Assembly: GCA_947497475.1 (NCBI GenBank)
Contig: CANMGS010000001.1
Span: 372,001 to 436,000, forward strand
Length of the DNA stretch: 64,000 nucleotides
Reading direction: 5' to 3'
DNA from: an uncultured Amylibacter sp.
Lineage (GTDB): Bacteria; Pseudomonadota; Alphaproteobacteria; Rhodobacterales; Rhodobacteraceae
The translations under genes and the position numbers were made by a program. The notes beneath the pieces were generated by a model that did no database searches, was not told the DNA's origin, and saw nothing but the letters and a program-made list of their open reading frames with translations. Positions 11,916 through 63,333 of this stretch are shown piece by piece. Position 1 is the first letter of the stretch. Every line of letters begins with the position of its first letter.

Positions 11916-11924
11916 ATGAGAGTT

Positions 11925-11956: not shown

Positions 11957-11989
11957 ACAAACAAGAATGAATACACAGGGAGAAAGACC

Positions 11990-13321: not shown

Positions 13322-13350
13322 TGCGAAATTTAAACGCATAAATTTATAGG

Positions 13351-13383
13351 GCAGTTGCATAGAAATGTGCAGCTGCTTTTTTG
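13351..13383 (+). terminator. Terminator after gmaS
   Basis: An imperfect stem (GCAGTTGCA / TGTGCAGCTGC with G-U pairs) around a short AGAAA loop is followed by TTTTTTG. It separates gmaS from tmm by a hairpin, as also happens between mgsC and gmaS. Confidence 0.75.
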
Positions 13384-13404
13384 TTTGAAGAAGAGGATAA
13401 ACGA

Positions 13405-14742: not shown

Positions 14743-14745
14743 TCC

Positions 14746-15462
14746 ATGCGGGTTCTGGTTTTTCAACATATCAAGGGCGAACACCCAGCAGCGTTCGCCC
14801 AACTTATGGATGCGCATGGCGATACCTATGACATTGTGCGCTTCTATGAAGATGATCCTATTCCAGATATGTCCGATTATGACATGTTGCTTGTCATGGG
14901 CGGGCCAATGGATGTGTGGGAAATAAATGATAACCCTTGGTTGATAAGTGAAAAAGAAGCGATCCGATATTGGGTGAAAGAGCTCAAACGTCCATATCTG
15001 GGGATATGCCTTGGCCACCAATTATTGGCAGATGCATTGGGTGGAGAATGCACACTTATGAATACCGCAGAAGTTGGGCTACTATCTATTGATATTGCGG
15101 CTGCGGGTAAAATTGACCCCGTGTTTCAAAGTTTCGAGACAAGTTTAAAATGCATGCAATGGCACGGCGTTCACGTTACCGAGTTACCAGACAACACTGT
15201 TTGTTTGGCTGCTAACGATATCTGTCCAACGCAAGCAATACGATATGGAAAACATGCATACGGTGTTCAGTTTCATCCAGAACTGATTACGGGTCTATTG
15301 GAAGATTGGCTGAGTGACAGCGCAAATAGCGATTGGCTGGAAGGTTTTCTGGGCAAAGAAGGGGCGCAAAATATGGTTGCTGATGTGAATACACAGATAT
15401 CAACTGTGCTTGAAACATCCAAAATACTTTATACAGGGATTAGACGCTTGGCGCATCCGTGA
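14746..15462 (+). CDS. Class I glutamine amidotransferase-like protein
   Basis: This 238-residue protein has the class I amidotransferase fold. Its nucleophile elbow is GICLGHQLLAD (Cys about residue 88), and the catalytic HPE comes near residue 178 (GVQFHPELIT). Such stand-alone proteins resemble the GMP synthase amidotransferase domain or PuuD gamma-glutamyl hydrolases. It starts 3 bases after tmm and is probably co-translated. A gamma-glutamyl hydrolase acting on gamma-glutamylmethylamide would fit the pathway, but no experiment known to me shows this. Its 3' end overlaps the convergent globin gene by 23 bases. Confidence 0.85.
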   Translation: MRVLVFQHIKGEHPAAFAQLMDAHGDTYDIVRFYEDDPIPDMSDYDMLLVMGGPMDVWEINDNPWLISEKEAIRYWVKELKRPYLGICLGHQLLADALGGECTLMNTAEVGLLSIDIAAAGKIDPVFQSFETSLKCMQWHGVHVTELPDNTVCLAANDICPTQAIRYGKHAYGVQFHPELITGLLEDWLSDSANSDWLEGFLGKEGAQNMVADVNTQISTVLETSKILYTGIRRLAHP

Positions 15463-15850
15463 TAGGTTTGCCATCATTAACCAAAGCATTTGCCACGCGT
15501 TCAAATGATGTCATTAACCGTATTTTAATAGGCTCTTGATGCCCACATACATCTAATGCCTGTTCCATACACGCCAACCAATTTTCAGCGTCTTTTTGTG
15601 TAATCGGCACATGCGCATGCATCAGCTTTACGTCCATATGCCCATGTTTTTCATAGTAATGGCGACGGCCGCCAAAAAATGCACTTAGGAAATTAAACTG
15701 TTCCAAACGCGCATGTGGAATACCGTGCCCGCGTGTGTGAAGCAACCTAATATTCTCACCTTCAGGTTTGCTTTCAATCAGATCATAGAAGGTTTCAACC
15801 AAGTGTCGAACTGCCGTTTCGCCGCCAATTTCGTCAATGATTTTATCCAT
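15440..15850 (-). CDS. Group II truncated haemoglobin
   Basis: This 136-residue protein has the truncated globin 2-on-2 fold. The N-terminal IGGETAVRHLVETFYDLI helix, the FLSAFFGGRRHYYEKHGH segment ahead of the proximal His, and a conserved Trp (ENWLACMEQAL) point to group II (TrbO-like). It binds O2 or NO in the cytoplasm. The start lies 2 bases after the tdm stop codon, so it is an operon partner of TMAO demethylase. It could serve in O2 delivery or protection in a cell running several oxygenases, but this is inference. Confidence 0.88.
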   Translation of the reverse strand: MDKIIDEIGGETAVRHLVETFYDLIESKPEGENIRLLHTRGHGIPHARLEQFNFLSAFFGGRRHYYEKHGHMDVKLMHAHVPITQKDAENWLACMEQALDVCGHQEPIKIRLMTSFERVANALVNDGKPITDAPSV

Positions 15851-15852
15851 AC

Positions 15853-18222
15853 TTAGGACCGTGGACGTTCTTTCTTTGGATCATAATGCGCGAAAGGTAC
15901 AATCGTCGCTGGTAAACGTTTTTGATGCCCATCTAGCTTTCCAATTTCCAATTCAGTGCCAACGTCACAATGCGCCACATCAACACGAGCCAATGCAATG
16001 TTTTTGCCCAATATTGGCGAACGCATAGACGAGGTTACTTCTCCAATTTGCGCACGACCAACATGAACGCAATCGCCGTGTTCAACATCCACAGCGCTAT
16101 CAATATCCAAACCAACCAATTTACGTGATGGTGTTTCTTTACGACGGATCAAAGCATCGCGCCCAATGAAGTCATCTGTTTTTGATTTTAACGGAACCGT
16201 AAAGCCAATGCCTGCTTCAAATGGATCCGTTTGATCCGAAAAATCATACCCAGCAAATATCAAACCTGCCTCAATACGCACCATATTCAAGGCTTCTAAC
16301 CCCATAGGTTTGATCCCATGATCTTGGCCTGCCGCCCAAACAGCATCAAAAACGTCTTTGGCATGTTTCGGATTACAGAAAATCTCATATCCAAGTTCAC
16401 CTGTGTACCCTGTTCGGGAAACGACAATCGGAACACCTTGATCATCGCCAATGCGTGCGGGCGTAAATTTGAACCATTCCAATTCGCCAACTTCGGGCTG
16501 ATGTGGCGCTGTCCATATAATCTTTCTCAGCAGATCACGGCTTTCGGGGCCTTGGACCGCAATGTTGTGCTGCATGTCTGTGCTCGAACGCACCAAAACA
16601 TTCAGCCCAAGCTCTTCGGCCTTTTCACGTATCCATTCACCGCCGTAATCCGAACCACCAATCCAGCGGAAATTATCACGGCCTAAACGGAACACCGTTC
16701 CGTCATCAATCATGCCACCGTGTTCATAACACATCGCGGTATATACCACGCCGCCATCCGCGAGCGTTTTCATATTGCGGGTGAATATATACTGACAAAG
16801 CGCTTCGCTGTCTGGCCCTGTAATTTCAAACTTCCGAAGCGGTGACAAATCCAAAACCACGCATTTTTCACGGCATGCATGATACTCATCAATCGGCCCA
16901 GACTTTGAAAAACAGTTCGCAAGCCAATACCCGTTATATTCAATAAAGTTACGCGTATGCTCTGCAAAACTTTCGTGAAATCCTGTTTGTTTCGTCATCT
17001 TAGGCTCCGCATCTGGCGTGGCACGAACAGCCACCGCACGTTGGAATTTCTCTTCGCCACTATACGTGCGAACATGAATATCAGTTGGGTTCCAGCCATT
17101 CGCGGCTGAGGTGTCATCAGGACAGGCCGAACTGACACAAATCAAATCGGTCAGGGCGCGAACCAAAACATAATCCCCTGGCCTTGACCAAGGTTCATCA
17201 GCGTACATAACGCCATGTTCATCAATACCTGTGTTGAAAAAGAAGTTGATCGCCATCCACCCAGCGCGATCTGTAACACCGTGTTTGCTTAAAGCACCAT
17301 TAAAGTTATCAGAACAATTCACATGCCCCGGATAACCGATATCGTCGTAATATTTTGCAGCACAGGCCAAAGCGAATGCGTCATGGCGTCCGCATGTATC
17401 TTGAATGACTTCAATCAGCGGCAACATATCCTGATCATAATATTTCGCATGTAAACCTGGCATGGGATAGGCATGCCCCATCAATGTCCGTGTCGTCGTT
17501 ACATCCAATGGGTGCTCAATCCCCTTGTCCAACTTACGTGCTGAGAAACATTGAAAATCCGTACATTGACGTCCATCCACATCCAAGATTTGGATATAAT
17601 CTCCTGCCTTAACAAAATATGTATCTGCCGTTTGCGAATGGATACGTAAATCCAAAACTGGGTCAGCCAAAGGATCGGGTAACTCAAATTTTGCAACTGA
17701 TTTAATCACGGCACGTTTGACCATAACTATCAAAGGCGTTGCCGTATCTTGTTGCTCGAAATCCATAATACCGCCAGGGGCGGCAATAATAACAACACCA
17801 TCACGTTGAGCCGTTAAATCAACGTCAGTCTTTGCTGGTGTACTTGCACCAAAAAACCGTATTGCACGCGCATCCGCTAAATCAATTTGGCGTGCATCTA
17901 ATCCCATGCGAAAGCCACGCAAACTGGTGTCTGAGCTGGCCAGTAGATGCTTCAAACCAGATGCATCACTATTAGACTTCTCGCCTAAAATCTGGGTGTC
18001 GATTTTACCAGCAGGATCAGCTGCAACAACTTCACAGACTTGCCCACCTTCATCATTTGTGATTGTCAGCCTATCCCCAGTTTCTACTGGGATTAGAATA
18101 GCACCGCATCCTTCGACAACATAACGTTCTGTACCAACCGGCATTGAAAAGACCTGCGGTTGAATAATCGCACTTGGCTTGGGTGGGCCAGAGATGACCT
18201 TTGGGTATTCTACATCCAACAT
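15853..18222 (-). CDS. tdm: Trimethylamine N-oxide demethylase (DUF1989 + GcvT fusion)
   Basis: This 789-residue two-part protein is TMAO demethylase (aldolase), which splits TMAO to dimethylamine and formaldehyde. The N-terminal half (about 25-380) is DUF1989, which binds zinc and performs the demethylation. The C-terminal half (about 410-785) is a GcvT-like folate domain (RTGYTGELGYEIFC, GLEALNMVRIEAGLIF) that captures formaldehyde on tetrahydrofolate. Length and fusion order match marine Tdm. The start codon faces the divergent threonine aldolase gene across a 286-base promoter region. The globin gene follows directly. Confidence 0.94.
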   Translation of the reverse strand: MLDVEYPKVISGPPKPSAIIQPQVFSMPVGTERYVVEGCGAILIPVETGDRLTITNDEGGQVCEVVAADPAGKIDTQILGEKSNSDASGLKHLLASSDTSLRGFRMGLDARQIDLADARAIRFFGASTPAKTDVDLTAQRDGVVIIAAPGGIMDFEQQDTATPLIVMVKRAVIKSVAKFELPDPLADPVLDLRIHSQTADTYFVKAGDYIQILDVDGRQCTDFQCFSARKLDKGIEHPLDVTTTRTLMGHAYPMPGLHAKYYDQDMLPLIEVIQDTCGRHDAFALACAAKYYDDIGYPGHVNCSDNFNGALSKHGVTDRAGWMAINFFFNTGIDEHGVMYADEPWSRPGDYVLVRALTDLICVSSACPDDTSAANGWNPTDIHVRTYSGEEKFQRAVAVRATPDAEPKMTKQTGFHESFAEHTRNFIEYNGYWLANCFSKSGPIDEYHACREKCVVLDLSPLRKFEITGPDSEALCQYIFTRNMKTLADGGVVYTAMCYEHGGMIDDGTVFRLGRDNFRWIGGSDYGGEWIREKAEELGLNVLVRSSTDMQHNIAVQGPESRDLLRKIIWTAPHQPEVGELEWFKFTPARIGDDQGVPIVVSRTGYTGELGYEIFCNPKHAKDVFDAVWAAGQDHGIKPMGLEALNMVRIEAGLIFAGYDFSDQTDPFEAGIGFTVPLKSKTDDFIGRDALIRRKETPSRKLVGLDIDSAVDVEHGDCVHVGRAQIGEVTSSMRSPILGKNIALARVDVAHCDVGTELEIGKLDGHQKRLPATIVPFAHYDPKKERPRS

Positions 18223-50807: not shown

Positions 50808-52904
50808 ATGGCAGAACAGAGTACGCTCACAATAGAAGACGCTTTCAAGCAGGCTATGGTGCATTATCAAAAAGGCCAACTTCAACCTGCTGTCGCATTA
50901 TTCTCCAAAATCATTCAGGCTGCGCCTCAACATGCTCATGCACATCAAATGCTGGGATTGATCGCGTTTCAGACAGAACAATACGAACCAGCCGTCAAAG
51001 CAATGACAGAGGCCGTACGCTTGCAGCCTCAAAATCCGCAGTTTCTGATGAACTATGTCGAAGTATTGCGTAAAGCGGGCAACATAGAAGCAGCTATTTC
51101 AGTTGGGAAGCGCGCAGTGCAAGCCGACCCAAACAACCCAGCAGCGCATTCAAATCTTGGACTTGCTTATTACGACGATCAAAACATTATTGAGGCTGAA
51201 GCATCACAACAGCGCGCTTTGGCTTTAAACTCAGATTTTAGCGCAGCCTTGAATAACCTTGGCAGTATTGCACGTGACAATGGCGACTTAGAGGGCGCGG
51301 TAACCTATTACCGTAAAGCTTTACGCACCAATCCAACTTATTCCGAAGCTGCAAACAATTGCATTTCCGTCTTTATTGAAGGGGAACGATATGAGGAAGC
51401 AAAGGAACTGGCGTATTCAGAATTAAAGCAAAACCCAAATGTTTCCGAATTACAGCGCAACATGGGGCGCATACATCTCTATGAGCATAAGCTGGACGAC
51501 GCAGAAACCAGTTTCCGCAACGCAATATCTTTGAACGAAAATAAAGCTGAGAATTATTTGGGGTTATCCCAAGTGCTTTATGAAAAGAACCATTCAAAAC
51601 TTGCTCTTATAGAAGCCGAAACCGCTTATCGTTTAGACCCTGAAAACCCGCAAATTTGCCATCAGATTGCAATCACCAAGGCTCATCTTGGGGATATGGA
51701 TGCAGGGTTTGAGTTCTATGAAAAAGCGCTCGCGCTAAACCCAGATATGACCGCCAGCCGTCTCGCGCTTGGGTATCTAAAAATGGAAAACGGGGACTTC
51801 GATGGTGCACGTGCTGATTTCGAACTGGCGGCGCAATCCACATATGATGCTTTGAATGCACAAATGGCACTCGCACGTATGGAAAAAATGACGCCTGATA
51901 ACTCTGCCTTTGTTGCACTTGAAGCGGCTTTACCAGAAGCAGAAAAGATGCCAGCGATGAAAGCAGCCGCTTATCATTACGCTTTGGGCAAGTGTTATGA
52001 GGATCTGTCTCGGTACGAAAATGCGTTTGAGCAATATGCTATAGGTGCAAAGGTTAAACGATCAACGTTTGATTATGATCCCGCTGAAACGGATCAAGTG
52101 ACAGATGATATCATCGCTCTTTTCGATAAGGGTATGATCGAAAAACTACGCAAAAGCGCAATATCAACAGAACAACCAATCTTTGTGTTAGGGATGCCAA
52201 GGTCAGGCACAACATTAACTGAATCTATTCTGGACAGTCATAGCAAAATTTCAGGCGCAGGCGAATTGAATTATCTGCAAAACCTATTTGGATTGTGTCC
52301 CACCAGCGGTAAATTTGATATGCCGCGTATTTTACCCCAAATGCCTGCGCATGATCTGACCAGAAAGATCGAAGAATATATCGAAAGCGCAAAAACACAC
52401 GCGCCCAACACACCGTATATTGTCGATAAAATGCCAGCAAACTTCCAAATGCTCGGCCTAATCTACGCATTGTTACCAAATGCAAAAATCATCCACATTG
52501 CACGCAATCCGTTTGACACTTGCCTGTCATGTTTTACGCGTATTTTTGAGCGCAGTCAGTTACACAGTTATGATCAAGTGGAATTAGGGCGCTATTTTAA
52601 CAACTATATTCGCCTGATGAACCACTGGCATACGCTTTTGCCAAAAGACAGTTTCCATACGGTTCATTATGAAAACCTCGTTGAGGATATAGATACCGAG
52701 GCACGCCGTATCATCGATTTCTGTGGTCTGGGCTGGGAAGACGCGTGTTTAGAGTTCTATAAAGGCAAACGCCGCGTTCGCACAGCCAGCGTACAACAGG
52801 TGCGGCAGCCGCTTTATAAAACGTCTAAAGAAAAGTGGAAAAGGTACGAGGCACAATTGCAACCTCTTGTTGATATTATTGCTTACAACAAAATCTCATT
52901 TTGA
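50808..52904 (+). CDS. TPR-repeat protein with C-terminal sulfotransferase domain
   Basis: This 698-residue fusion has about ten TPR units in residues 10-400 (repeats with the AxxxLGxxxxxxGxxxxAxxxY pattern). A sulfotransferase domain spans about 455-690, with the PAPS loop FVLGMPRSGTTLTESILDSH and the 3'-phosphate motif HIARNPFDTCLSCFTR, plus YENLVEDIDTEAR. It could add sulfate to a protein or glycan partner docked on the TPR arm. It is downstream of the membrane LuxR gene. Similar fusions are common in marine proteobacteria; acceptors are unknown. Confidence 0.9.
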   Translation: MAEQSTLTIEDAFKQAMVHYQKGQLQPAVALFSKIIQAAPQHAHAHQMLGLIAFQTEQYEPAVKAMTEAVRLQPQNPQFLMNYVEVLRKAGNIEAAISVGKRAVQADPNNPAAHSNLGLAYYDDQNIIEAEASQQRALALNSDFSAALNNLGSIARDNGDLEGAVTYYRKALRTNPTYSEAANNCISVFIEGERYEEAKELAYSELKQNPNVSELQRNMGRIHLYEHKLDDAETSFRNAISLNENKAENYLGLSQVLYEKNHSKLALIEAETAYRLDPENPQICHQIAITKAHLGDMDAGFEFYEKALALNPDMTASRLALGYLKMENGDFDGARADFELAAQSTYDALNAQMALARMEKMTPDNSAFVALEAALPEAEKMPAMKAAAYHYALGKCYEDLSRYENAFEQYAIGAKVKRSTFDYDPAETDQVTDDIIALFDKGMIEKLRKSAISTEQPIFVLGMPRSGTTLTESILDSHSKISGAGELNYLQNLFGLCPTSGKFDMPRILPQMPAHDLTRKIEEYIESAKTHAPNTPYIVDKMPANFQMLGLIYALLPNAKIIHIARNPFDTCLSCFTRIFERSQLHSYDQVELGRYFNNYIRLMNHWHTLLPKDSFHTVHYENLVEDIDTEARRIIDFCGLGWEDACLEFYKGKRRVRTASVQQVRQPLYKTSKEKWKRYEAQLQPLVDIIAYNKISF

Positions 52905-53077: not shown

Positions 53078-53833
53078 TTAAACTGATGGCGAGTTCATAG
53101 TGCTAGGTGTCGCTAGCTTATTGTCTTTTGATAAATGGCAAAAATCTAAATATACAATATCAGTAATATCATTATCTGCCGCTACCGAAATTATAAAATT
53201 ATTTATTTTATTATTAAATGTCCAAAGCCGATAATTCTTATATGGTATTACTAAGCCATTTTTCAGATCTGGGCAGGTGTTAATATATTTTATGTCTTCA
53301 TCTAGCCCCGTACCGTCCGCTTTAACCACAGCTTCTTTTCTAGTCCAACATGTCAAACGTCTTCTATTTAAAGAACGCTCATTATCATAAATCCATCTCA
53401 TCTCGGTATCATGGAAAACATTTTTAGGAATATCTATATATGAAACATCTTGGAATAAGCACTCGATATCTACGCCTATAGTTCGTGTTAAAGAAAGACA
53501 TAAAACAATGTAATTTTCAGAGTATGATATGGAAAAAACGCTGCCGTTTTTTATATAAGGCTTACCTTTTTGTGAAGTTTGTAGCGGTGTTTTACATGTC
53601 TCTAAATTAAGTAAAAAACGCAATAATTTTCGGCCAATTATATAACGCCTTGAATGTAGAGAGCATCTGAACTTCTGTGCTTTATAGAGTTCGCAATCAG
53701 ATAAAAGGATATTTTCTGGGACAGGCGTCGTTGTTGAGAATAATATTGTTAGGCATTTTTCCTGATCATACAGAGTATTCAAACACCCTTTAAGCCAAGA
53801 GAATTCATCCGTAAAAGTACTATGATTATCCAT
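53078..53833 (-). CDS. 4'-phosphopantetheinyl transferase, Sfp type
   Basis: This 251-residue protein has the Sfp-type motifs: GKPYIKNGSVFSISYSEN (substrate strand), GVDIE (Mg-binding Asp/Glu), and WTRKEAVVKADGTGL. It attaches the phosphopantetheine arm of coenzyme A to the NRPS carrier protein (Ser962 of the synthase encoded upstream). The ATG at 53833 is chosen because the longer frame to 54007 overlaps the reductase gene. A hairpin lies 21 bases before its start. It is last in the biosynthetic operon and AT-rich. Confidence 0.9.
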   Translation of the reverse strand: MDNHSTFTDEFSWLKGCLNTLYDQEKCLTILFSTTTPVPENILLSDCELYKAQKFRCSLHSRRYIIGRKLLRFLLNLETCKTPLQTSQKGKPYIKNGSVFSISYSENYIVLCLSLTRTIGVDIECLFQDVSYIDIPKNVFHDTEMRWIYDNERSLNRRRLTCWTRKEAVVKADGTGLDEDIKYINTCPDLKNGLVIPYKNYRLWTFNNKINNFIISVAADNDITDIVYLDFCHLSKDNKLATPSTMNSPSV

Positions 53834-53853
53834 TGATATATTACGCGAAGAAT

Positions 53854-53881
53854 ACACCCAAAGAGCTATTTCTTTGGGTGT
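53854..53881 (-). terminator. Hairpin between OYE and PPTase genes
   Basis: A perfect 11-bp stem (ACACCCAAAGA / TCTTTGGGTGT) with a 6-base loop fills the gap between the two genes. It has no U-run on the minus strand, so it may be a stability or attenuation element that lowers PPTase expression relative to the synthase. Confidence 0.6.
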
Positions 53882-53894
53882 ACTGGAATGACAT

Positions 53895-54974
53895 CTAAAC
53901 TTTATTTTCCATAGTAGGATAGTCTGTATAGCCCCGCTCATCTCCACCATAAAAAGTATTTTCATCTGCTTGATTAAGAGCAGTATTTCCCCGTATACGG
54001 TCAACAAGATCTGGGTTTGCTAAGAATGAAGAACCAAGGCATACAGCTTCTGCAAGGCTCTGTTGTAAAATAGGTTCTACAAGCTGTGGTGATGCAGGCC
54101 AATGTTGCTCATCTTCATGTGGATTTAGGATAATTGCATTTTTCCATTGATTGCGGATCAATTGGGTTTGCGGGCGATTATTCGCTTCCATGATGCTAAT
54201 GAACGCCATATCAGGAAGCCCTGCTATCAAAGTGTTATAAAGCGCTTCAGTATCACCTTCGACAATATCATTATAAGGGTTTGCAGGTGAGATGCGAAGA
54301 CCTGTTTTGCTGCTGCCTATTTGATCAACAACAGCTTGTGCGACTTCAATCGGGAACCGCACTCTTGCAGATAAATCTCCGCCGTATTCATCCGTACGTT
54401 GGTTGGTGTTTTCTGCCATGAACTGGTGCAATAAAAAACCATTGCCTGCATGAATTTCAACACCATCAAATCCAGCATTAATTGCATTCTGGGCAGCCTG
54501 TATAAAATCGCTTATTGTTTCGTTAATGTCATTCTTTTTCATTGCGATTGGCGTTGGGTATTCAACCATACCATCTGTTGTAAATGTGCTGCCGCTTGCT
54601 GCGATTGCAGATGGCGCTAGTGATGTATGTGCGCTTGGATAAAGTGATGGGTGCCCAATACGGCCAGCATGCAAAATCTGAGCTACAATTTTACCACCTG
54701 CTTTGTGAACAGCATCCGTTACATGCTTCCATGAACGCACTTGCGCATCTGTGTATAAGCCAGGCGTATTCATAAAGCCTTGCCCAACTTGGCTTGGTTG
54801 AATTGCTTCCGAGATGATCAGACCAGCGCTTGCGCGCTGACTATAATAATCTGCCATCATATGCGTAGCCTCACCGCTTTGGGTGGCTCTGTTTCTGGTC
54901 ATTGGTGCCATAACCAGACGGTTTTCTAGGTCGATGTCGCCAATACGAATGGGTTCGAAGGTTTTCTGTGTCAT
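53895..54974 (-). CDS. Old Yellow Enzyme family alkene reductase
   Basis: This 359-residue FMN protein of the NemA/XenB type has the start motif NRLVMAPMTRNRA, QILHAGRIGHPSLYP, the active-site pair in EIHAGNGFLLHQF, and TDEYGGDLSARVRFP. It reduces activated C=C bonds with NAD(P)H. In this operon it may act on the unsaturated product or protect the cell from redox-active quinone-like pigment. The role is inferred from position only. It is 23 bases after the IndA-like gene. Confidence 0.9.
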   Translation of the reverse strand: MTQKTFEPIRIGDIDLENRLVMAPMTRNRATQSGEATHMMADYYSQRASAGLIISEAIQPSQVGQGFMNTPGLYTDAQVRSWKHVTDAVHKAGGKIVAQILHAGRIGHPSLYPSAHTSLAPSAIAASGSTFTTDGMVEYPTPIAMKKNDINETISDFIQAAQNAINAGFDGVEIHAGNGFLLHQFMAENTNQRTDEYGGDLSARVRFPIEVAQAVVDQIGSSKTGLRISPANPYNDIVEGDTEALYNTLIAGLPDMAFISIMEANNRPQTQLIRNQWKNAIILNPHEDEQHWPASPQLVEPILQQSLAEAVCLGSSFLANPDLVDRIRGNTALNQADENTFYGGDERGYTDYPTMENKV

Positions 54975-54997
54975 AATATCTCTTTCTAAAATGTTAA

Positions 54998-55936
54998 TTA
55001 TGTTTTTTGCAAAGCACTATAGGCTGCTGCGAGGCGTCCACCGGTTTCGGCGGTGCTTATTAAAACAGCCATATTGGCCTTTGAAGTACGCCCCCCCGAC
55101 GCTTTATCGACGGCACGCATTAGATATTTTGTAACCATGTTACCTGCAATATTTTCTGTTTTCGCATCAATAAGGGCTTGTTCAATTGCTCCTTCGATAT
55201 CGTTACGATCAATTGCGTCTTTGTCCAAAGGAGGGGTTGTAATTACAAAACTACTTTTAGGGTTGGTAAACCAATGGGTATCAATCGCTTTCGCCACGTC
55301 TGATGGCTCATCCATTCTGTGTGGACTTCGTATCCCGCTTGATGCGCAATAAAATGCAGGAAAGTCATCTGATTTATAAGAAACAACAGGAACACACTGG
55401 GTTTCAAGATACTCCATAGTGCGATCCAAATCCAAAATGCTTTTAGCACCAGCACAAACAACGGCAACTTTTGAGCGTGTAAACTGGATAAGATCTGCAG
55501 AAACATCCATTGAGTTTTCTCCACCACGGTGGACCCCTCCGATCCCAGCCGATGAGAAGAATGAGATACCTGCAAGTTCCGCACAGATAAGTGAAGATGC
55601 AACGGTCGTTGCTCCCGCTTTACCTTGCGCCAATACGATTGGTAAGTCACGACTGCTGACTTTAGGTATGCCGGATGTTGTTGCAAATTTTTCGATGGCG
55701 GCATCATCCATACCAACATGAATTACACCGTTATCAATGTATAATGTTGCAGGAATTGCACCACCTTTACGTACAGCTTGTGCGACTTTTTTAGCGGTTT
55801 CAGCATTCTCAGGGTATTCAAGACCGTGCGTGATCACATTAGATTCTAAAGCAACCACAGGCGCACCTGTTGCAAGTGCATCTTTGATTTCTTCGCTGTA
55901 ACGAATAGGTATTTTGTGTTTGGGAGACATTTTCAT
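54998..55936 (-). CDS. indA: Pseudouridine-5'-phosphate glycosidase-like protein (IndA/PsuG family)
   Basis: This 312-residue protein matches Psu[61 protein letters not shown] and [17 protein letters not shown]. PsuG cleaves or forms the C-glycosidic bond between uracil and ribose 5-phosphate. IndA homologues are constant partners of the indigoidine synthetase, and in Streptomyces MinB uses this fold to make the C-nucleoside minimycin. It starts near 55936 (an in-frame ATG at 55930 is equally possible), just after the tautomerase stop. No HAD phosphatase (IndB/MinC) is nearby. Confidence 0.9.
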
Positions 55937-55941
55937 TCTTT

Positions 55942-56166
55942 TCAATAACCAGGCTTTTTAATCAATAAATTACTACGCCCCATTATTTCGGGGACATAAA
56001 CCGTTGTTTGCCACTTTGAGGCGTCAATTTGTTCAAGAGCGATAGAGACATGTTCTTTTTTCGTTTTTAGATGATCTTGAATAAGCTTTGTAATCGCGTC
56101 ACTTAATTTCGTTTTTTGCTCATCCGATAACGATAATGGGAAATGTTTTATATTAATGTGAGGCAT
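55942..56166 (-). CDS. 4-oxalocrotonate tautomerase-like protein
   Basis: This 74-residue protein has Pro at position 2 ([10 protein letters not shown]), which becomes the catalytic N-terminal proline after Met removal, and a beta-alpha-beta tautomerase fold ([29 protein letters not shown]). The ATG at 56166 has GGG ahead and lies inside the 3' end of the NRPS gene (14-base overlap). It could isomerise a keto/enol or imine/enamine intermediate of the glutamine-derived ring. That role is inferred. Confidence 0.88.
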
Positions 56167-59100
56167 AGGAACCCTTTTGCATAAACTGGAGTTTGATATT
56201 ATTAAGCGCCATTTTGAATTGGTGTGGCCCATAAACTGTTGAGCCTTCAAGGATAGAGATTAATGCTTCGACGCTGCCGAGCTTTAGGATTTCGTAATGA
56301 TCTGTGTCAGATGTAATTATTTCTGGTGGAATAAATGAGAAATCTTTTTGTCCCTCAATGAAGGAATAGTCGTCACCTTTTGCTTTAATGATTGTAATTG
56401 GAGCCACAATTTGACGTTCGGTTAATTCTTTAAAACTATATTCAAACTCATAAGTTTGCCGCACAATATTCATGATCCGCACCGCAGTCGGTGCATCCAT
56501 CTCTGGGCGGCGTTCAAGTATAAATTCAATGAAACTTTTATGATCAGAACAATATTTATAACATGCTTCAACTTCTTCTGTATCAATTTTAGCCGTAAAA
56601 ACAGAGAGAAGGATTGCCAGATATGTTTTATTACTTAAATCGGTAGTACGGTTGGTTACTTCCCCATGAAATGTTCGCACTCGCGGGTTTCCTGGGCATA
56701 TTAAGACCACTTGGTCGACCTGCTTGTTCAATTGCTCTAATTGCCAAGCAGTTTCGAAAGCAACACGCGCGCCAAATGAATAACCCCATAAAGTATAGGG
56801 TCCCTCAGATTGCATTTTTAATATTTCTTTCACATCAGCTTTTGCCATTTCGGAAATTGTTGAAAATGGAACTTCATCTTGGTTAATACCGTAAGATTGG
56901 ACACCAAAAAAAGGACGTGGCTTAGATAGGTTTTGCGCTAATGGGCGTAGGTTCATAGGGTATCCACCAAGACCAGGCCAACAAAATATTGGCCTTCCGT
57001 TATTGCCATTATTCAGCTGCACTAAACGTGAATACTCTTTGGGGGAATTATCATCAATCCTTGCAGCTAGGTCAGTCAGGCGAGGATGCTCAAAAACAAT
57101 TTGGATAGGGAGTTTAATATTAAAATGCTTATTAATTTTTGAAATTATAGAAACAGCCGTTAATGAGTTTCCGCCAGAAGTGAAAAAATCATCCTCTTTA
57201 GAAACATCATTGTATTTCAACATGGCTTTCCATAAATCTGCTAACCATATTTCTGTAGGCGTTTCCGGAGCGATATAAGGTTGACCTTGTAAAGCTTCGC
57301 GCAATCTATCCGATGATTTAATTGCAAAGAGATCGACCTTACCATTTGCAGTTTGTGGTAATTTATCAAAAATAACAACGCGGTTTGGAATCATATAATC
57401 TGGCAATGACTTTGCCAAATCTTCTGTGATCATCTCTGCAGGACCTTGCATATGAACACGATCCTCATTCATACCTTCACTTTCATATTGTTCATCAGTG
57501 ATTTTACCACCGATGAAGAAATACGAGGCCCCAGTTGGAAGGTTATGATTTCCTAAAATATCTGTAATTCGTGTTGCAGGCCGCAAAGGGTTTCCAGTTT
57601 TAGAGCTATACCCAGAAGACATAAATCCAAAGTTTTTTGTGTTACTCTGGAAGCGATGTAATACATGCCCAAGTGCTATGTACTCTAACCAACTTTCTTT
57701 TTCACGACTGATTACTGAAATACCGAGACTAGAATTCTCATAAGTTTGCTGATTGATAGCAATAACTTGGTTTTTCTTTATAATTTTCTCAGAAATTAGG
57801 TTAAGTTTTGTGCCGTTAATTTTATATGTACCCTTTGGCATTCCTTCGACCTTATCGCCATGGGCTTGGAGATATAAATCAACATTTGGGCACCAATTTT
57901 GGGCTACTGGAACAATTTCAAACGTACCAAGATAATAATCATCATCTTGAATATTAAGGTGCGTACGCATTTTTTCGCAATGCCCAATCGGGCATATACC
58001 ATAACCATCTTTGGCTAGCACGTTTTGAAAAAGGCCTAGCATATGACCCGTTTCCATTTCCAGAACTTCAAGAATATTGTTTTTGTAGACGCTCTCGATA
58101 GCTGCCGTCTTACCCGTAAAATGAATGCGGACACCTGGGTTGCTGGAAATTGAATTGGAGATTTTTATAAATTTATGATCAATAGGATGGAAATAAAATA
58201 TACCATTCTCGATATCATCAATATCTTTACACTCAATGTAAATTTGTGTGGCGTATAACGCACCAGGAGAAGCATATGCGTATTTAGGCAACAAGCGGTT
58301 TTCACTTTTGAACTGACCAAACCAGCGCAAGGTTTTACTTAAAAATGCTGCATCTATTATTGTGTTGTTATGGGCCGCTTCTATATCGGAATGATATTCG
58401 CTTAAGAGGTCAATTATACTTTTAACTGTAACGTCATCACCATCATAAAAACGGTAAGTTTTTCGCCCAAAGGCTATACGACGTTGCTCGGCAGTTTCCT
58501 TGGCATAACCCAAAGGAATTATCTTTTTACCTTGGTCTAGATCGGGATCACGTAGTCCCCCATTTGAAAGCTGTGCTTTAACTTGGTGTTTGTTTGCTTT
58601 TGACTGATGATGCTTGCCTGCAACGCCCTGATCCATCAATGCAGCTTTTCGTTCACTCAGTTCGATACACGCCGTTAAGCTTTGACTGTTTGTCCGCTCA
58701 TCATCCGTAATTATAGCGGCGCCACAACGAACCCACTGGTGGCTTTCAATCGCTAATGCAACTTCTGCCAATTCTACGCGATATCCACGCAATTTAACTT
58801 GATGGTCTATGCGCCCGCAAAACTGCAAGTTGCCATCTGGTGTTTTTTTAACTAAATCCCCCGTTTTATAAATGCGCTCATTCTTGTTTTCTGGGTTATA
58901 GATAAAGCGTTCTAATGTTTGATTTGGTCGATTTAGATATCCACGCGCGACTTGAATACCCCCAATATACAACTCACCAGTCTCTCCAGTTTCAACTAAC
59001 CTCAAGTCTTTGTCTAAAACATAACATGTTGTTCCGAACACAGGCTTGCCAATGGTAACTGATTTACTGCTGTGTTGCGTATCAACCGAAGTAACCTCAT

Positions 59101-60049
59101 GGAATGTTGCGTTGATTGTGCATTCTGTTGGGCCATATAAATTGACCAAACGGCAGTTTGGCATGTAATCGTAAAAAGCTTTTGCCAGTTTTTGCGATAA
59201 GGCTTCACCACCAGAATAAATGGTGGTCAAGCTCGTACACTCATGGAATTTTTCAGTATCGATTAAAGCTTGTAAAAGTGTTGGTACACATTGCAATGCA
59301 GTTACCTTTTGCTCTTTGATGAGCTGCATTAAAGCATCAGGATCACGATATAAGCCAAACACTCCAGTAACAGTTACTCCACCCATTGCAGGAGCTAATA
59401 TTTCCCACTGCGCAGCATCAAAACTCATTGGCGTTTTTTGCAAGATACGTGTACCAGATGTTACATAACCGCGATTTTCCAACCATTTTAACTGTGACGT
59501 AATCGCATGGTTTTCAATCATGACACCTTTGGGCCGCCCAGTACTGCCTGATGTATAAATTACATAAGCCAGATCACTTTCATTTGCAGAAGATATATAT
59601 ACATCACTGCTTTCGTTTCCTTCATCTATGATGATGAAGCGGGTACCTGTTGGGGCATAGTTACTGATCTTTTCCAACAAGTGTGATTGCGTAACGATAA
59701 CATCCGTTTCGCTATTTTCGATTATGTAACGAATACGCTCTTCTGGATATTCTGGAGCTAAAGGCAGGTAAGCTTTACCTGAAAAAATAGCCCCCCATAC
59801 ACCAACAAGAAGATCTATAGATGGATCAGCATATACACCAACGCATAAAGTATTTGGCGTAGCTTCTTTTACAATTTGTGCTGCTAATTTAGCTGCTGAA
59901 TCGTACAACTCTGCAAATGTCAAATCGTTATCGCTTGATACAATGCATATATCGTTTGGTTTTTTCTGCACTTGCCATTGAAACATTTCAAGTAATGATT
60001 TGGTTTGGGATAATTCAATGGTTTCAGGAAGAAGAGAAGTAAGTTGCAT
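56153..60049 (-). CDS. indC: Indigoidine synthetase-like single-module NRPS (A-Ox-T-TE)
   Basis: This 1298-residue NRPS has the layout of indigoidine synthetases (IndC, BpsA, IgiD, about 1280 aa). The adenylation domain (about 15-440) shows A3 TSGSTGRPKG at 166-175, A5 YGPTE at 305-309, A7 YKTGDL at 394-399 and A8 GRIDHQVKLRGYRVE at 412-426. An FMN-type oxidase domain is inserted between A8 and A10 (about 500-850). A10 NGKVD is at 902-906, the carrier motif GGNSL has Ser962, and a thioesterase follows (GYSFG, Ser1091; DHYE, His1251). The family activates L-glutamine, cyclises and oxidises it, and two rings join to the blue pigment indigoidine. It starts 23 bases after the exporter gene. Confidence 0.95.
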   Translation of the reverse strand: MQLTSLLPETIELSQTKSLLEMFQWQVQKKPNDICIVSSDNDLTFAELYDSAAKLAAQIVKEATPNTLCVGVYADPSIDLLVGVWGAIFSGKAYLPLAPEYPEERIRYIIENSETDVIVTQSHLLEKISNYAPTGTRFIIIDEGNESSDVYISSANESDLAYVIYTSGSTGRPKGVMIENHAITSQLKWLENRGYVTSGTRILQKTPMSFDAAQWEILAPAMGGVTVTGVFGLYRDPDALMQLIKEQKVTALQCVPTLLQALIDTEKFHECTSLTTIYSGGEALSQKLAKAFYDYMPNCRLVNLYGPTECTINATFHEVTSVDTQHSSKSVTIGKPVFGTTCYVLDKDLRLVETGETGELYIGGIQVARGYLNRPNQTLERFIYNPENKNERIYKTGDLVKKTPDGNLQFCGRIDHQVKLRGYRVELAEVALAIESHQWVRCGAAIITDDERTNSQSLTACIELSERKAALMDQGVAGKHHQSKANKHQVKAQLSNGGLRDPDLDQGKKIIPLGYAKETAEQRRIAFGRKTYRFYDGDDVTVKSIIDLLSEYHSDIEAAHNNTIIDAAFLSKTLRWFGQFKSENRLLPKYAYASPGALYATQIYIECKDIDDIENGIFYFHPIDHKFIKISNSISSNPGVRIHFTGKTAAIESVYKNNILEVLEMETGHMLGLFQNVLAKDGYGICPIGHCEKMRTHLNIQDDDYYLGTFEIVPVAQNWCPNVDLYLQAHGDKVEGMPKGTYKINGTKLNLISEKIIKKNQVIAINQQTYENSSLGISVISREKESWLEYIALGHVLHRFQSNTKNFGFMSSGYSSKTGNPLRPATRITDILGNHNLPTGASYFFIGGKITDEQYESEGMNEDRVHMQGPAEMITEDLAKSLPDYMIPNRVVIFDKLPQTANGKVDLFAIKSSDRLREALQGQPYIAPETPTEIWLADLWKAMLKYNDVSKEDDFFTSGGNSLTAVSIISKINKHFNIKLPIQIVFEHPRLTDLAARIDDNSPKEYSRLVQLNNGNNGRPIFCWPGLGGYPMNLRPLAQNLSKPRPFFGVQSYGINQDEVPFSTISEMAKADVKEILKMQSEGPYTLWGYSFGARVAFETAWQLEQLNKQVDQVVLICPGNPRVRTFHGEVTNRTTDLSNKTYLAILLSVFTAKIDTEEVEACYKYCSDHKSFIEFILERRPEMDAPTAVRIMNIVRQTYEFEYSFKELTERQIVAPITIIKAKGDDYSFIEGQKDFSFIPPEIITSDTDHYEILKLGSVEALISILEGSTVYGPHQFKMALNNIKLQFMQKGSYASH

Positions 60050-60072
60050 ATTGAAAAGTCCTTAAGTGCTGT

Positions 60073-60966
60073 TCAATTATTTTTTTGAAGGAAGTTGGGT
60101 AAAAATGATTTTGATTGTGGTTGGGCTAAAACGACGGCAAAAATAACGGCGATCGCGCCAAGGATTTGTATACCATTCAAATTTTGATCTAGAAAAATAT
60201 ACCCTAGAGCAGCAGCTGAAAGTGGGCTTGCAAGAGATATGAATGAAACGGATAACGCAGGCAAACGATCAAGGCCACGAAACCAAAGAGCGTATGCAAC
60301 TAATGCACCAACGACGCAAAGATATGTAAAGCCAAGCCAATTCGTCAAAGTGATTTTTTCGGGAAGGCCTTCGCTTAAAAATGCGGGAGGAATTAAGACC
60401 AAGCCGCCAACAATGAGTTGCCAACCGGTAAAAGTTAATACACCAACATTTTTTGGGCGCCCCCAGCGTTTGGCAAAGACTAATCCTGTTGCCATACTTA
60501 AGGCTCCAGCGAACCCAGCAATGACACCAATAAAATCTAGCTTTGCAGTAGGTTGCAAAACAATTAGAGCAACGCCAACCATGCCTATAATACAAGCGGC
60601 CACCTGCGTTGTTTGAATAGATTGCCCAAGTAGAACAAGACCTAACAATAAAACAATTACGGGCTGAATCGACATGATCAACGCCGCAACCCCTCCAGGT
60701 AAATGATAGGCTGCTAAAAAAAGAAAATAAAAGAACGCACCAATATTCAAAATGCCTAATACGCAAGCTTTCCACCACCACTGACCTTCTGGGAGTTGCC
60801 TACCAATCAGCAAAAGCAATATTCCCGCAGGTAAAGCACGTAATACAGAAGCTAATAAAGGGCTGTTAGGAGGTAAGAATTCCGTGGTCACTAGGTAGGT
60901 GCTGCCCCAAACAATTGGAGCAACCGCCGTTAGAATTATATTAAAGGTAATGTTATCTTTTATCAT
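60073..60966 (-). CDS. EamA/DMT-type transporter
   Basis: This 297-residue protein has ten transmembrane helices in two EamA repeats (VWGSTYLVTTEFLPP start, GALVAYALWFRGLDRLPAL, LASPLSAAALGYIFLDQNLNG). It probably exports the operon product or a related compound. The ATG at 60966 overlaps the UPRT stop (TGATG), so the two are translationally coupled. In the min cluster an exporter (MinT) belongs to the self-protection set; family identity with MinT cannot be judged here. Confidence 0.93.
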   Translation of the reverse strand: MIKDNITFNIILTAVAPIVWGSTYLVTTEFLPPNSPLLASVLRALPAGILLLLIGRQLPEGQWWWKACVLGILNIGAFFYFLFLAAYHLPGGVAALIMSIQPVIVLLLGLVLLGQSIQTTQVAACIIGMVGVALIVLQPTAKLDFIGVIAGFAGALSMATGLVFAKRWGRPKNVGVLTFTGWQLIVGGLVLIPPAFLSEGLPEKITLTNWLGFTYLCVVGALVAYALWFRGLDRLPALSVSFISLASPLSAAALGYIFLDQNLNGIQILGAIAVIFAVVLAQPQSKSFLPNFLQKNN

Positions 60967-61625
60967 CACCTAAATACCTGCTGAGTTCCAAAATAGCGGT
61001 CACCAAAATCACCAATGCCTGGAATCATGTAAGCATCTGCGTTCAGTTCGCGTTCTATCGATGACGTCACGACATAGAGCTGCGGGTATTTTTGCGTTAA
61101 CCTTTCAATGCCATCTGGGGATGCTAAAAGGTTTACAAATATGATATTTTTCTCAGGGACACCTTTCTCTAACAATAAATCAATTGCAGCAATCGCCGAG
61201 CCGCCAGTTGCCAACATTGGCTCCAATAACAAAACATGCCTTTGTGAAATATCTTCGGGTAAATGTGAATAATAATACTTTGGTTTCTTAGTTGTTTTAT
61301 CTCTTTGAATTAAGATCTTGCCAATAGGCATACCTTTTACCAAATGTCCCAGCTCATGCTCCATACTTTCACCTGCGCGAATTACAGACACTGCGCATAG
61401 CTTTGCATTAATAGTGAGCCCCTCATAACTCTGACCAATTGGGGTGATGACATTTAGACCTTCATACGGGAGAAGATCTAAACTTGTTTCTAATAACTGC
61501 CTAATTATCCTATTCGAATAGAAGACAAAATCTGCCTGGCATGTGTCTTTGTTTCTCACAATTGAGTGTAATGCACGTAATTGCTTTGTTTGTTTTAAAA
61601 TGTGAACTTTTTCGTTAACACTCAT
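60966..61625 (-). CDS. upp: Uracil phosphoribosyltransferase, eukaryote-like
   Basis: This 219-residue enzyme makes UMP from uracil and PRPP. It has SVIRAGESMEHELG, the dianion loop IGKILIQRDKTTKKP, the PRPP-binding loop LLEPMLATGGSAI, and IPGIGDFGDRYFGT. Typical bacterial Upp reads GLGDAGDR at the last motif and LRAGLGM at the first. The variants here resemble Toxoplasma and fungal enzymes. In the min cluster MinD (a UPRT) protects the producer by raising UMP. It follows the TrpF-like gene by 26 bases. A housekeeping upp is expected elsewhere. Confidence 0.93.
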   Translation of the reverse strand: MSVNEKVHILKQTKQLRALHSIVRNKDTCQADFVFYSNRIIRQLLETSLDLLPYEGLNVITPIGQSYEGLTINAKLCAVSVIRAGESMEHELGHLVKGMPIGKILIQRDKTTKKPKYYYSHLPEDISQRHVLLLEPMLATGGSAIAAIDLLLEKGVPEKNIIFVNLLASPDGIERLTQKYPQLYVVTSSIERELNADAYMIPGIGDFGDRYFGTQQVFR

Positions 61626-61651
61626 GACAGTGCCCCCTGATAATAATGATT

Positions 61652-62353
61652 TTAGCTAGCTTTTTGATGCAGTTTTGCGCCACGCAATTCAGCGAACGCT
61701 CGGCGCGTCTCTGAGACAAACTTACGAACCTTCATTTGGTCCTTACGTTTATCAATACCTTCAAGTAGAGAATGCGCGTCTACCGCTGCCGGACGGACTT
61801 TTAAAATTGCATCTGCAACATTCTCTGGAGAAAGACCGCCAGCCATCATTAATGGTTTTGGCGAGCGCCGCACAAGTTCCGCGCTTACATCCCAGTTGTG
61901 CGTTAAGCCTGTCGCTCCTTTAGCACCTGTTGCTGGGTTAAATGTGTCTGTGATAAACATATCCACATGTTGTTGACAATCATCTACAAGCTTTAACAGT
62001 TCTTCCGCATTATCTTCACGCACAACTAAACTTTTTAGAATATATAATTCTGGACGTAGCTCTTTTAGTCTTTTCATTTCTGCGATTTCTACATCGCCAT
62101 GTAATTGAACTGCTTTAACACCAAGCTCATTACAAAACATGCTCACATCTTCAGCTTTCGTGAGATAGCTAATTAAAACACCAGCATGTTTTTGAGGAAG
62201 ATTCGAGATAATTTGTGTGGCCGCTTCTTCGCTGATATCATCTTTACCAGATGGCAAGCGCAGGGGGAAACCCAGCCAATCCACGTTCTCTTTTATAAGC
62301 ATATCTGCTTCTGCTGCATCAATAATACCCGCAACTTGTATAATATTTTCCAT
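61652..62353 (-). CDS. Phosphoribosylanthranilate isomerase-like protein with altered active site
   Basis: This 233-residue protein has the TrpF (beta-alpha)8 barrel: VQLHGDVEIAEMKRLK, FITDTFNPATGAKGATG and LMMAGGLSPENVADAI. TrpF normally begins KICGIT, with the Cys as general base; here the segment is IQVAGIID, so Cys is replaced by Ala. The usual VDVSSGVE end of the barrel is VDAHSLLEG. It is thus not a normal tryptophan enzyme and may act on a phosphoribosyl intermediate of the operon product. The ATG at 62353 has AAGGA at proper spacing, unlike the ATG at 62359. It is the first gene of the operon. Confidence 0.82.
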   Translation of the reverse strand: MENIIQVAGIIDAAEADMLIKENVDWLGFPLRLPSGKDDISEEAATQIISNLPQKHAGVLISYLTKAEDVSMFCNELGVKAVQLHGDVEIAEMKRLKELRPELYILKSLVVREDNAEELLKLVDDCQQHVDMFITDTFNPATGAKGATGLTHNWDVSAELVRRSPKPLMMAGGLSPENVADAILKVRPAAVDAHSLLEGIDKRKDQMKVRKFVSETRRAFAELRGAKLHQKAS

Positions 62354-62438
62354 CTTCATTCCTTTTCGCTATAGCGCGCCATATAGTTTTACGAAAATAG
62401 TCGTAACACATTGAAAAAATAAGTTTAATTATTAGCCG

Positions 62439-62656: not shown

Positions 62657-63175
62657 TTATGTATTGAGCTTTTGTAATAACTTTTGCAGCTGAGCACGTT
62701 CTAGCGTTGATAATTTCTTCAAAGCATCTTTCTCTGTTGCAACATGCGAAGAGACAAGTTCATCTACAAGGTCAAAGCCTTTTTGTGTTAAACTAATTTT
62801 CAAACCACGACGATCATTTGCATCTTGAGTTCGTTCAACAAGACCTTTTTCTTCTAACCTGTCCAACCGGTTGGTCATTGCAGATGTCGAACGCATCATT
62901 TCCTTGCTCAACTCTGACGGTGAAAGCGTTTGCCTGTAGCCTTGCCTTCGGAGTGTCAGCATGACATCACCTGCAGCAAGATCCAAATCAAACCGCTTCA
63001 TGTTATCTGCTACTGCAGCTTTTATAGATCGCCCTGCTTTCCAAATCTCACCACATAAAGACATTATGGATGCGTCTACATCTGGGCGCTCACGTTTCCA
63101 TTGGCCTGATATCTTATTTAAAGTGGTTTTTTTTTGCTCATTTGAAGTCGCACGAGAAGTCGTCTCTTGACACAT
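62657..63175 (-). CDS. MarR family regulator
   Basis: This 172-residue winged-helix protein has the MarR layout. Helices for dimerisation flank the DNA-binding core LSPSELSKEMMRSTSAMTNRLDRLEEKGLVER and the wing DANDRRGLKISLTQKG (Asp-Arg-Arg core). It reads towards the biosynthetic operon and is separated from it by the lux box region. The start at 63175 has GGTGGAA ahead. The frame continues to 63244 through a set of 15-bp repeats that look regulatory. It may sense the pigment or a related phenolic-like ligand. Confidence 0.9.
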   Translation of the reverse strand: MCQETTSRATSNEQKKTTLNKISGQWKRERPDVDASIMSLCGEIWKAGRSIKAAVADNMKRFDLDLAAGDVMLTLRRQGYRQTLSPSELSKEMMRSTSAMTNRLDRLEEKGLVERTQDANDRRGLKISLTQKGFDLVDELVSSHVATEKDALKKLSTLERAQLQKLLQKLNT

Positions 63176-63201
63176 ATTTCCACCTATAATATTTTGACGT
63201 G

Positions 63202-63237
63202 GTAATACTTTATACCGTAATACTTCACATCGTAATT
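63202..63237. repeat. 15-bp direct repeats upstream of marR
   Basis: GTAATACTT recurs at 63202 and 63217, and a partial third copy GTAATTTT starts at 63232, so the period is exactly 15 bases. They lie just upstream of the marR start and may be operator half-sites for MarR or LuxR on one helix face spacing of about 1.5 turns. Confidence 0.6.
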
Positions 63238-63333
63238 TTAACATAACTAGATTTAATATTTTAGTCTAGAGGAATGCGAAAACCAAATGAATTTCTGAAA
63301 GACCAATTGACCTTACATTTCTATTTTTATTCT

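Follow-up and report, generated by a model that had tools for sequence, protein, structure and literature searches.

An indigoidine-synthetase gene cluster type of two bacterial phyla, met in an uncultured Amylibacter sp. and apparently marked by a TrpF-like protein with an altered active site

Among described systems, the genes considered here are best set beside those of the min pathway. In the portions of PMC8724604 drawn on here, the min cluster of Streptomyces hygroscopicus JCM 4712 is reported to give both minimycin and indigoidine: MinA builds the ring and tautomerises it by means of its Tau domain, C-glycosylation is the work of MinB, oxidation and dephosphorylation are that of MinC, and MinD, a uracil phosphoribosyltransferase (UPRT), is proposed to confer self-protection by raising the level of uridine monophosphate (UMP). 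The window analysed here, the whole of a 64,000-nucleotide stretch from an uncultured Amylibacter sp. (assembly GCA_947497475.1, contig CANMGS010000001.1, positions 372,001 to 436,000), carries on its minus strand, from 62359 to 53078, eight co-directional genes. In order of transcription these encode a TrpF-like protein, a UPRT, an EamA exporter, a nonribosomal peptide synthetase (NRPS) of the indigoidine-synthetase type, a tautomerase, an IndA protein, an Old Yellow Enzyme (OYE) and a 4'-phosphopantetheinyl transferase (PPTase), with a MarR gene upstream. An earlier note on this DNA had listed the eight genes and likened some of them to those for MinA, MinB, MinD and MinT; all eight open reading frames are present where it placed them, Pfam names each as it had claimed, and the likeness in kind is borne out by the roles given for the Min proteins in the same portions of PMC8724604.

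The note had also called the operon a hybrid with extra enzymes, a description that does not hold: the genes for the TrpF-like protein, UPRT, EamA, NRPS, IndA and OYE almost certainly constitute a conserved cluster type, found in Actinomycetota and Pseudomonadota. The new element is the recognition of such a cluster type across two phyla, marked by a relative of TrpF whose active site is altered; it is an uncharacterised form of a kind already known. In the open-licence literature, indigoidine appears together with phosphoribosylanthranilate isomerase (TrpF) only in PMC2830990, and a C-nucleoside together with that enzyme nowhere. Four TrpF-like proteins were compared with 84,980 genomes, one per species, and among the best 80 of 294 relatives there are 36 loci with at least 51% identity to the TrpF-like protein, followed by a gap, with nothing above 37%. 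As these loci come from a TrpF-like query, the counts of accompanying genes are conditional on that protein: UPRT and EamA are present in all 36, the NRPS, IndA and OYE in 31 each (for OYE including one fragment at a contig end), the tautomerase in 24 and MarR in 22. The figure for the tautomerase is probably too low, since the gene is short and divergent. Three of the five loci from which the NRPS is missing (L019, L032 and L038) have one elsewhere in the genome, and the other two (L021 and L024) lie on short contigs. A gene for phosphoribosyl pyrophosphate (PRPP) synthetase accompanies 13 of the 36, all in Actinomycetota. Grouping by chance is excluded for the window's gene set because it recurs in 36 loci from other genomes, and the idea that the operon is unique was rejected for the same reason.

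The hosts are Streptomyces, Kitasatospora, Actinoplanes, Actinopolyspora, Rhodococcus, Millisia, Corynebacterium, Shewanella, Rheinheimera, Pseudoalteromonas, Chromohalobacter, a member of the Oxalobacteraceae, an Oceanospirillales metagenome-assembled genome, Agrobacterium vitis and Epibacterium ulvae. The nearest relatives of the window's TrpF-like protein are from Shewanella (78%) and Streptomyces (76%), with those of A. vitis and E. ulvae further off (62-65%), a pattern that speaks for horizontal movement. The pairwise distances of six cluster proteins are correlated (Spearman 0.55-0.91 over 15 pairs, shared ancestry included), and median identity to the window's proteins is 70% for the TrpF-like protein, 63% for IndA, 61% for EamA, 58% for both UPRT and OYE, and 38% for the tautomerase. 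Of 196 genomes of the window's order, two have the NRPS: that of the window, and another in which the 6.8 kb available contain no TrpF match. None of the five same-genus genomes of that sample has it. Among 385 genomes of the same class, only the window's has a member of the TrpF-like family. A second match in that class (G471) was rejected as a member of the TrpF-like family, as it has the KICG motif. A tblastn search of plasmids with the NRPS gave 37 records with one place covering at least 80%, of which 18 were opened (four of these typed by tblastn alone), and five of the 18 hold a TrpF-like gene. Plasmid pAvCG78a of A. vitis has the TrpF-like protein, UPRT, EamA, NRPS, tautomerase, IndA and OYE, arranged as they are in the window; Streptomyces lavendulae CCM 3239 and Streptomyces sp. 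NBC_01276 have the same seven genes plus PRPP synthetase, in another order, and two Corynebacterium plasmids have six of the seven, without OYE.

The gene for the TrpF-like protein, a predicted (beta/alpha)8 protein of Pfam family PRAI, lies first in the set, at 61652-62359 on the minus strand. Forty cluster proteins (that of the window, those of A. vitis (L003), CCM 3239 (L012) and Corynebacterium aurimucosum (L014), and those of the 36 scan loci) were aligned with 45 canonical TrpF sequences; the counts of 40 hold duplicates, L034 and L046 being identical with the seed records L012 and L003, and L047 being a second A. vitis strain. The Lys-x-Cys-Gly of canonical TrpF, in which Lys and Cys are found in 45/45, has become Gln-x-Ala-Gly in the cluster proteins (Gln8 and Ala10 in 40/40), and the loop-2 Arg, again in 45/45 canonical sequences, is Asp40 in all 40. 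The general-acid Asp138 has been retained in every cluster protein, as in 44 of the 45 canonical ones, together with the His of QLHG and the GGL of the AGGL loop. Newly invariant in the TrpF-like proteins (40/40) are Asp14, Trp28, Arg34, Asp41, Glu44, Tyr65, Thr137, Thr139, His154 and His196. Two scan patterns, LPSGKDDI (which holds Asp40 and Asp41) and [KD]AVQ[LI]HGD (which holds the QLHG His), mean that the constancy of those residues is partly selected; Ala10, Gln8, Asp138, His154 and His196 lie outside both patterns, and the six of the 36 loci that lack LPSGKDDI still have Asp40. In TrpF itself, the Cys is presumably catalytic, the Arg of loop 2 the ligand of the anthranilate carboxylate, and the Asp the general acid. 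The cluster protein thus seems not to be a TrpF and to have taken on a different job; the replacement of the Arg suggests a substrate without the anthranilate carboxylate, and the retention of the Asp and the AGGL loop suggests a phosphoribosyl compound.

In a tree of these sequences, a branch 2.46 long and supported at 100/100 has the TrpF-like group on one side. Long-branch warnings attach to the canonical side, and under midpoint rooting five archaeal canonical rows, of which some are long, are placed with the TrpF-like proteins. The AlphaFold2 model is a confident barrel (pLDDT 91.7), for which Foldseek puts TrpF structures first (top 1dl3). The genome also holds a normal trpF beside trpB, and the possibility that the cluster protein is the organism's sole TrpF was rejected on that account. 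As there is likewise a second UPRT in the genome, outside the cluster, the TrpF-like protein and UPRT of the cluster are both paralogues.

It is likely that the eight genes form one operon, because the spacings from the TrpF-like gene through OYE are small (26, -4, 23, -14, -4 and 23 bases, hence 26 at most) and the PPTase gene follows 61 bases on. The MarR-family regulator (62657-63244, minus strand like the eight genes; Pfam MarR) lies 297 bases upstream of the TrpF-like gene; in the 22 related loci with a MarR gene, it is 30-42% identical to the window's and in some cases lies several kb off. The UPRT paralogue (60966-61625; Pfam UPRTase) has its best matches among solved structures in 1upf and 1bd3 (E 1e-69), well ahead of 1i5e (E 4e-34); the first two are presumably Toxoplasma UPRT and the last bacterial. 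The window's protein retains the GDFGDR loop, and position 135 of the PRPP motif is Glu in 40/40 cluster UPRTs (the count for L050 using one piece of a split match); Asp is found there in the genome's second UPRT and in that of a min-type cluster on a Streptomyces mirabilis plasmid (L109). Glu135 was rejected as a strict partner of the TrpF-like protein, since the UPRTs of L108 and L165 carry Glu without TrpF. The EamA/DMT-family exporter (60073-60969; Pfam EamA) is followed by the NRPS (56153-60049; 1298 residues), a single module with the apparent arrangement A (oxidase insertion)-T-TE, in which Pfam finds AMP-binding, PP-binding and Thioesterase. It is 40-51% identical to plasmid-borne NRPSs over 95-99% of its length (best 33 plasmid rows, tblastn), and one NRPS that matches it end to end is annotated as an indigoidine synthase. 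Pfam gives no listing for an Ox domain; we infer one from the end-to-end similarity to indigoidine-type NRPSs and from an insertion between the core motifs of the A domain that is conserved in an alignment of 33.

The tautomerase, 4-OT/PptA-like (55942-56166; Pfam Tautomerase, NCBIfam PptA above cut-off), is a separate open reading frame, not fused to the NRPS, the end of which it overlaps by 14 bases; it starts at 56166 with ATG CCT, giving an N-terminal Pro, and matches YdcE (1gyj). IndA, a putative C-glycosidase or C-glycosynthase of the IndA/PsuG type (54998-55945; Pfam Indigoidine_A, E 1.4e-108), is the only PF04227 match in the genome, with AlnA (4ex8) and PsuG (4gij) as matches in the PDB. 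Its Lys168, conserved among the cluster IndAs, aligns with the PsuG lysine that is Ala in structure 4gim; Glu34, Lys95, His139, Asp151 and Asn291 are conserved as well. AlnA we take to be the C-ribosylating enzyme of alnumycin biosynthesis. Next come the OYE, a flavoprotein of the N-ethylmaleimide-reductase type (53895-54974; Pfam Oxidored_FMN, E 2e-75, with OYE matches in the PDB), and directly after it the PPTase (53078-53833; Pfam ACPS), which probably starts at 53833. A PPTase-like tblastn match is found in only three of the 36 related loci (L028, L031 and L034), 4 to 10 kb from TrpF, so that this looks to be the one local gene of the operon; a PPTase in the A. vitis cluster, suspected by eye from a PPTase-like stretch of a hypothetical protein, was rejected when Pfam gave nothing. 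Beyond the cluster, at 50808-52904, lies a TPR-sulfotransferase gene with relatives in four of five same-genus genomes, at only 30-40% identity; this flank also seems to be variable within the genus.

Taken together, the gene families tip the balance, by a little, toward an operon whose product is a ribose-bearing pyridinedione, formed from the same glutamine-derived ring as indigoidine and made with or without indigoidine alongside it. The NRPS, armed by the PPTase, would turn L-glutamine into 5-aminopyridine-2,6-dione, going by the chemistry of its family, and the tautomerase would convert this to its aromatic tautomer, the role proposed for MinA's Tau domain. IndA would then join the ring to ribose 5-phosphate by a C-C bond, as proposed for MinB; such C-ribosylation is the part of the scheme most readily credited and is reasonably likely. 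The earlier note had thought a C-nucleoside plausible, and it is still so, because the IndA lysine and the neighbouring PsuG residues are intact. Somewhat less assured, yet still probable, is that a phosphoribosyl ring, not phosphoribosylanthranilate, is what the TrpF-like enzyme works on, most likely by opening or isomerising the sugar of a phosphoribosylated ring supplied by IndA or, less likely, by UPRT and PRPP; Asp138 would serve as the acid along with a new base, for which His196 is a candidate. Opening or isomerisation of a sugar ring is the natural chemistry of the TrpF fold, though any particular reaction named for this enzyme is doubtful. The OYE may reduce an activated double bond of the ring or an intermediate, or guard the ring from over-oxidation, and UPRT may feed PRPP into the pathway or top up UMP for self-protection, as proposed for MinD. 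A phosphatase encoded elsewhere would remove the phosphate and EamA would export the product, while some ring may escape and dimerise to indigoidine. A bolder and rather improbable version of the scheme has the TrpF-like enzyme carry out a carbon analogue of the Amadori rearrangement on the C-ribosyl aminopyridinedione 5'-phosphate supplied by IndA, giving a new class of exported metabolite across two phyla that has so far been mistaken for indigoidine alone. Asp138 would open the furanose to a quinone methide, the route commonly ascribed to PsuG, and the C2' proton would be taken by a new base, for which His196 may serve. The product would be an open-chain C-linked 1-deoxyribulose pyridinedione or, after reduction of the exocyclic alkene by OYE, a C-linked deoxyribityl compound.

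What speaks for a ribosylated product is the recurrence of the set in 36 loci of two phyla, the correlated distances of its proteins, the substitutions in the TrpF-like protein and its place on one side of the 100/100 branch, the paralogue status of that protein and of UPRT, Lys168 of IndA, the PRPP synthetase in 13 loci, the HAD genes that directly follow OYE in two loci (L043 and L049), and the E. ulvae fosmid 19F10. In the available text of PMC3564156, E. coli carrying that fosmid, which has a bpsA-like NRPS, is antibacterial and shows no blue pigment, and a product other than indigoidine was suggested. PMC7989816, as far as the same kind of extract goes, calls the fosmid antibacterial and antinematodal, with an indigoidine cluster, whereas table 1 of PMC3564156 has it as antibacterial only; homologues of TrpF, UPRT, IndA and OYE are not named in the parts of either paper covered here.

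Several observations weigh against that reading. The 19F10 clone is said in the available text of PMC3564156 to be without other indigoidine genes, so that the share of the cluster in it is uncertain. The CCM 3239 genes have been reported as indigoidine genes (PMC10409956, in the part covered here), and E. ulvae U95, with the same seven genes, was found to make indigoidine by high-performance liquid chromatography-mass spectrometry (HPLC-MS) (PMC7989816, likewise in part); its possession of these genes also takes away the novelty that the earlier note had seen in such a cluster for a marine alphaproteobacterium. IndA could degrade rather than build, as PsuG enzymes also cleave. HAD phosphatases are found in only three of the 36 loci (by tblastn of all loci and Pfam on 70 of 148 flanking open reading frames), the third being a HAD-like match about 4.5 kb from TrpF in L020. 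Kitasatospora humi has its TrpF set on one contig and its NRPS on another. Five of the 36 loci (among them one at a contig end and another on a short contig) have no OYE; strain NBC_00158 keeps UPRT, IndA and PRPP synthetase with TrpF and OYE absent; and in Corynebacterium glaucum (L050, 10765-13155) the UPRT match is split into parts separated by 1.7 kb, in which lie long minus-strand open reading frames, transposase-like by eye. The C. glaucum UPRT gene thus seems to be interrupted, with TrpF, NRPS, tautomerase, IndA and EamA present. From NBC_00158, C. glaucum and the loci without OYE, it follows that no one of TrpF, OYE and UPRT is needed everywhere.

The alternative that survives best, though it is unlikely, is that indigoidine is the only end product and that IndA, UPRT and the TrpF-like protein form a protection module: the uracil-like aminopyridinedione would be ribosylated by accident, IndA would split the C-nucleotide, UPRT would refill UMP and the TrpF-like protein would clear another phosphoribosyl by-product. 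IndA does match pseudouridine-5'-phosphate glycosidases, MinD has been proposed as a self-resistance gene (in the portions of PMC8724604 used here), and the indigoidine reported from E. ulvae (PMC7989816, as above) comes from a carrier of the cluster. However, indigoidine-type NRPSs often stand without such genes. In 38 Streptomycetaceae NRPS loci (38 of 200 genomes, with flanks of about 8 kb, two of them cut by contig ends), TrpF was found in none, UPRT in one and IndA in two, along with EamA in two and a separately detected tautomerase in 16; these absences are from the locus rather than the genome, K. humi (G197) having its TrpF set on another contig (L038). Strain W1SF4 similarly has only NRPS, Tau and EamA, without TrpF, UPRT, IndA or OYE, in the 21.8 kb searched. 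Neither PRPP synthetase nor OYE is obviously explained by protection.

A less probable alternative still gives the TrpF-like protein no catalytic activity and makes it a scaffold or sensor, binding a nucleotide product and regulating UPRT or IndA. The catalytic Cys is indeed gone in 40/40, but the general-acid Asp, GGL and the polar residues Arg34, Asp40, Asp41, Glu44, His154 and His196 are invariant in 40/40, and the median identity of 70%, as against 38-63% for UPRT, IndA, OYE, EamA and the tautomerase, is what would be expected of an active site. Least likely by far is an ordinary minimycin (oxazinomycin) pathway with its missing step supplied elsewhere in the genome, since, for all that NRPS, tautomerase, IndA, UPRT and exporter make up the min set in kind (PMC8724604, in part), the TrpF-like protein and OYE have no place there as described, UPRT has Glu135 rather than the Asp of L109, and a tblastn search of the window and the 36 loci with the MinC-like protein of L109 gave no match to Questin oxidase (PF14027) and HAD-only matches in L043 and L049.

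Neighbouring kinds of cluster show how the parts can be combined. The S. mirabilis plasmid NZ_CP108478.1 (L109), whose record in PLSDB has no annotation, holds at 9001-16946 a min-type cluster of an NRPS-tautomerase fusion, IndA, a HAD + Questin oxidase protein and UPRT, without TrpF and OYE. The Streptomycetaceae locus L165 is an intermediate cluster, with IndA, NRPS, HAD, EamA and a Glu-type UPRT and without TrpF or OYE. On plasmids of Rhizobium rhizogenes K84 (L013) and Rhizobium sp. B21/90 (L106), an indigoidine-type NRPS stands beside a DMT exporter, cysteine synthase, cupin, nickel permease, PPTase and CysE, and a Streptomyces microflavus plasmid (L111) has an indigoidine-like NRPS (35%) between two aroA-like genes and asnB, with no tautomerase match.

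At least two clusters of this type, those of S. lavendulae CCM 3239 and E. ulvae U95, have been filed in print as indigoidine genes; the conserved set of TrpF-like protein, UPRT, OYE and IndA suggests that the whole branch makes something else too, possibly ribosylated and antibacterial. It also provides a clear-cut instance of an enzyme from the tryptophan pathway being recruited into secondary metabolism, with its active-site exchanges defined, and a place from which to approach the chemistry behind the black pigment of C. aurimucosum and behind the unexplained colourless antibacterial clone from E. ulvae. A further known compound that was considered as product is indochrome, which we take to be a C-ribosylated indigoidine of Arthrobacter. 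It could not be tied to any cluster and was set aside; IndA, pseudouridine and indochrome are not mentioned for A. antioxidans QL17 in the part of PMC13405713 covered here.

Compared with the min cluster, the window has in common, in kind, the indigoidine-type NRPS, the tautomerase, IndA (MinB), UPRT (MinD) and an exporter (MinT being compared by role, not family). The correspondence seen by the earlier note stands to this extent but does not reach to a plain min pathway: the window's tautomerase is separate (fused in L109), the PRPP motif of its UPRT has Glu where L109 has Asp, TrpF-like protein, OYE and PPTase are added, and MinC, a HAD + Questin oxidase pair in L109, is not in the cluster. 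A HAD phosphatase, which the note had found lacking, is indeed lacking locally, as tblastn of the window with the S. mirabilis MinC-like protein and two HAD proteins gave neither such a gene nor a DUF4243/Questin-oxidase gene; as MinC is absent from the cluster, minimycin itself is an unlikely product. The igi operon, for roseobacter indigoidine in Leisingera, shares an indigoidine-type NRPS and a tautomerase with the window. Its other genes include igiR (TetR), igiB (hydroxyisobutyrate dehydrogenase), igiC (arylmalonate decarboxylase) and igiE (a major facilitator superfamily, MFS, exporter), according to table 2 of PMC5014874, the paper being used in part; Pfam finds no such dehydrogenase, decarboxylase, MFS exporter or TetR among the window's eight operon proteins, MarR and one flanking gene, and conversely IndA, UPRT, TrpF and OYE have no tblastn match in the igi locus (L006). 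With TrpF, the cluster protein shares the fold, the general-acid Asp, the QLHG His and the AGGL loop, though with the catalytic Cys and the invariant Arg replaced and a position in a separate group on a long stem.

Plasmid pET44827 of C. aurimucosum (L014) shares with the window the TrpF-like protein (same clade), UPRT, NRPS, tautomerase, IndA, EamA and MarR, but differs in gene order, in having no OYE that was found, and in an NRPS only 36% identical. In the available part of PMC2830990, the black pigment of that species is assigned to an NRPS region that also holds phosphoribosyltransferase (PRT) and PRAI homologues, and these were suggested as possible activators of the NRPS; we do not think so, as such a role is not supported by their families. 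The CCM 3239 cluster, in the auricin region (L012), has PRPP synthetase added and another order, and that of E. ulvae U95 (L048) has a LysR gene upstream and no MarR match; neither has a PPTase next to the set, yet both carry the whole of it, TrpF-like protein, UPRT, EamA, NRPS, Tau, IndA and OYE, as in the window.

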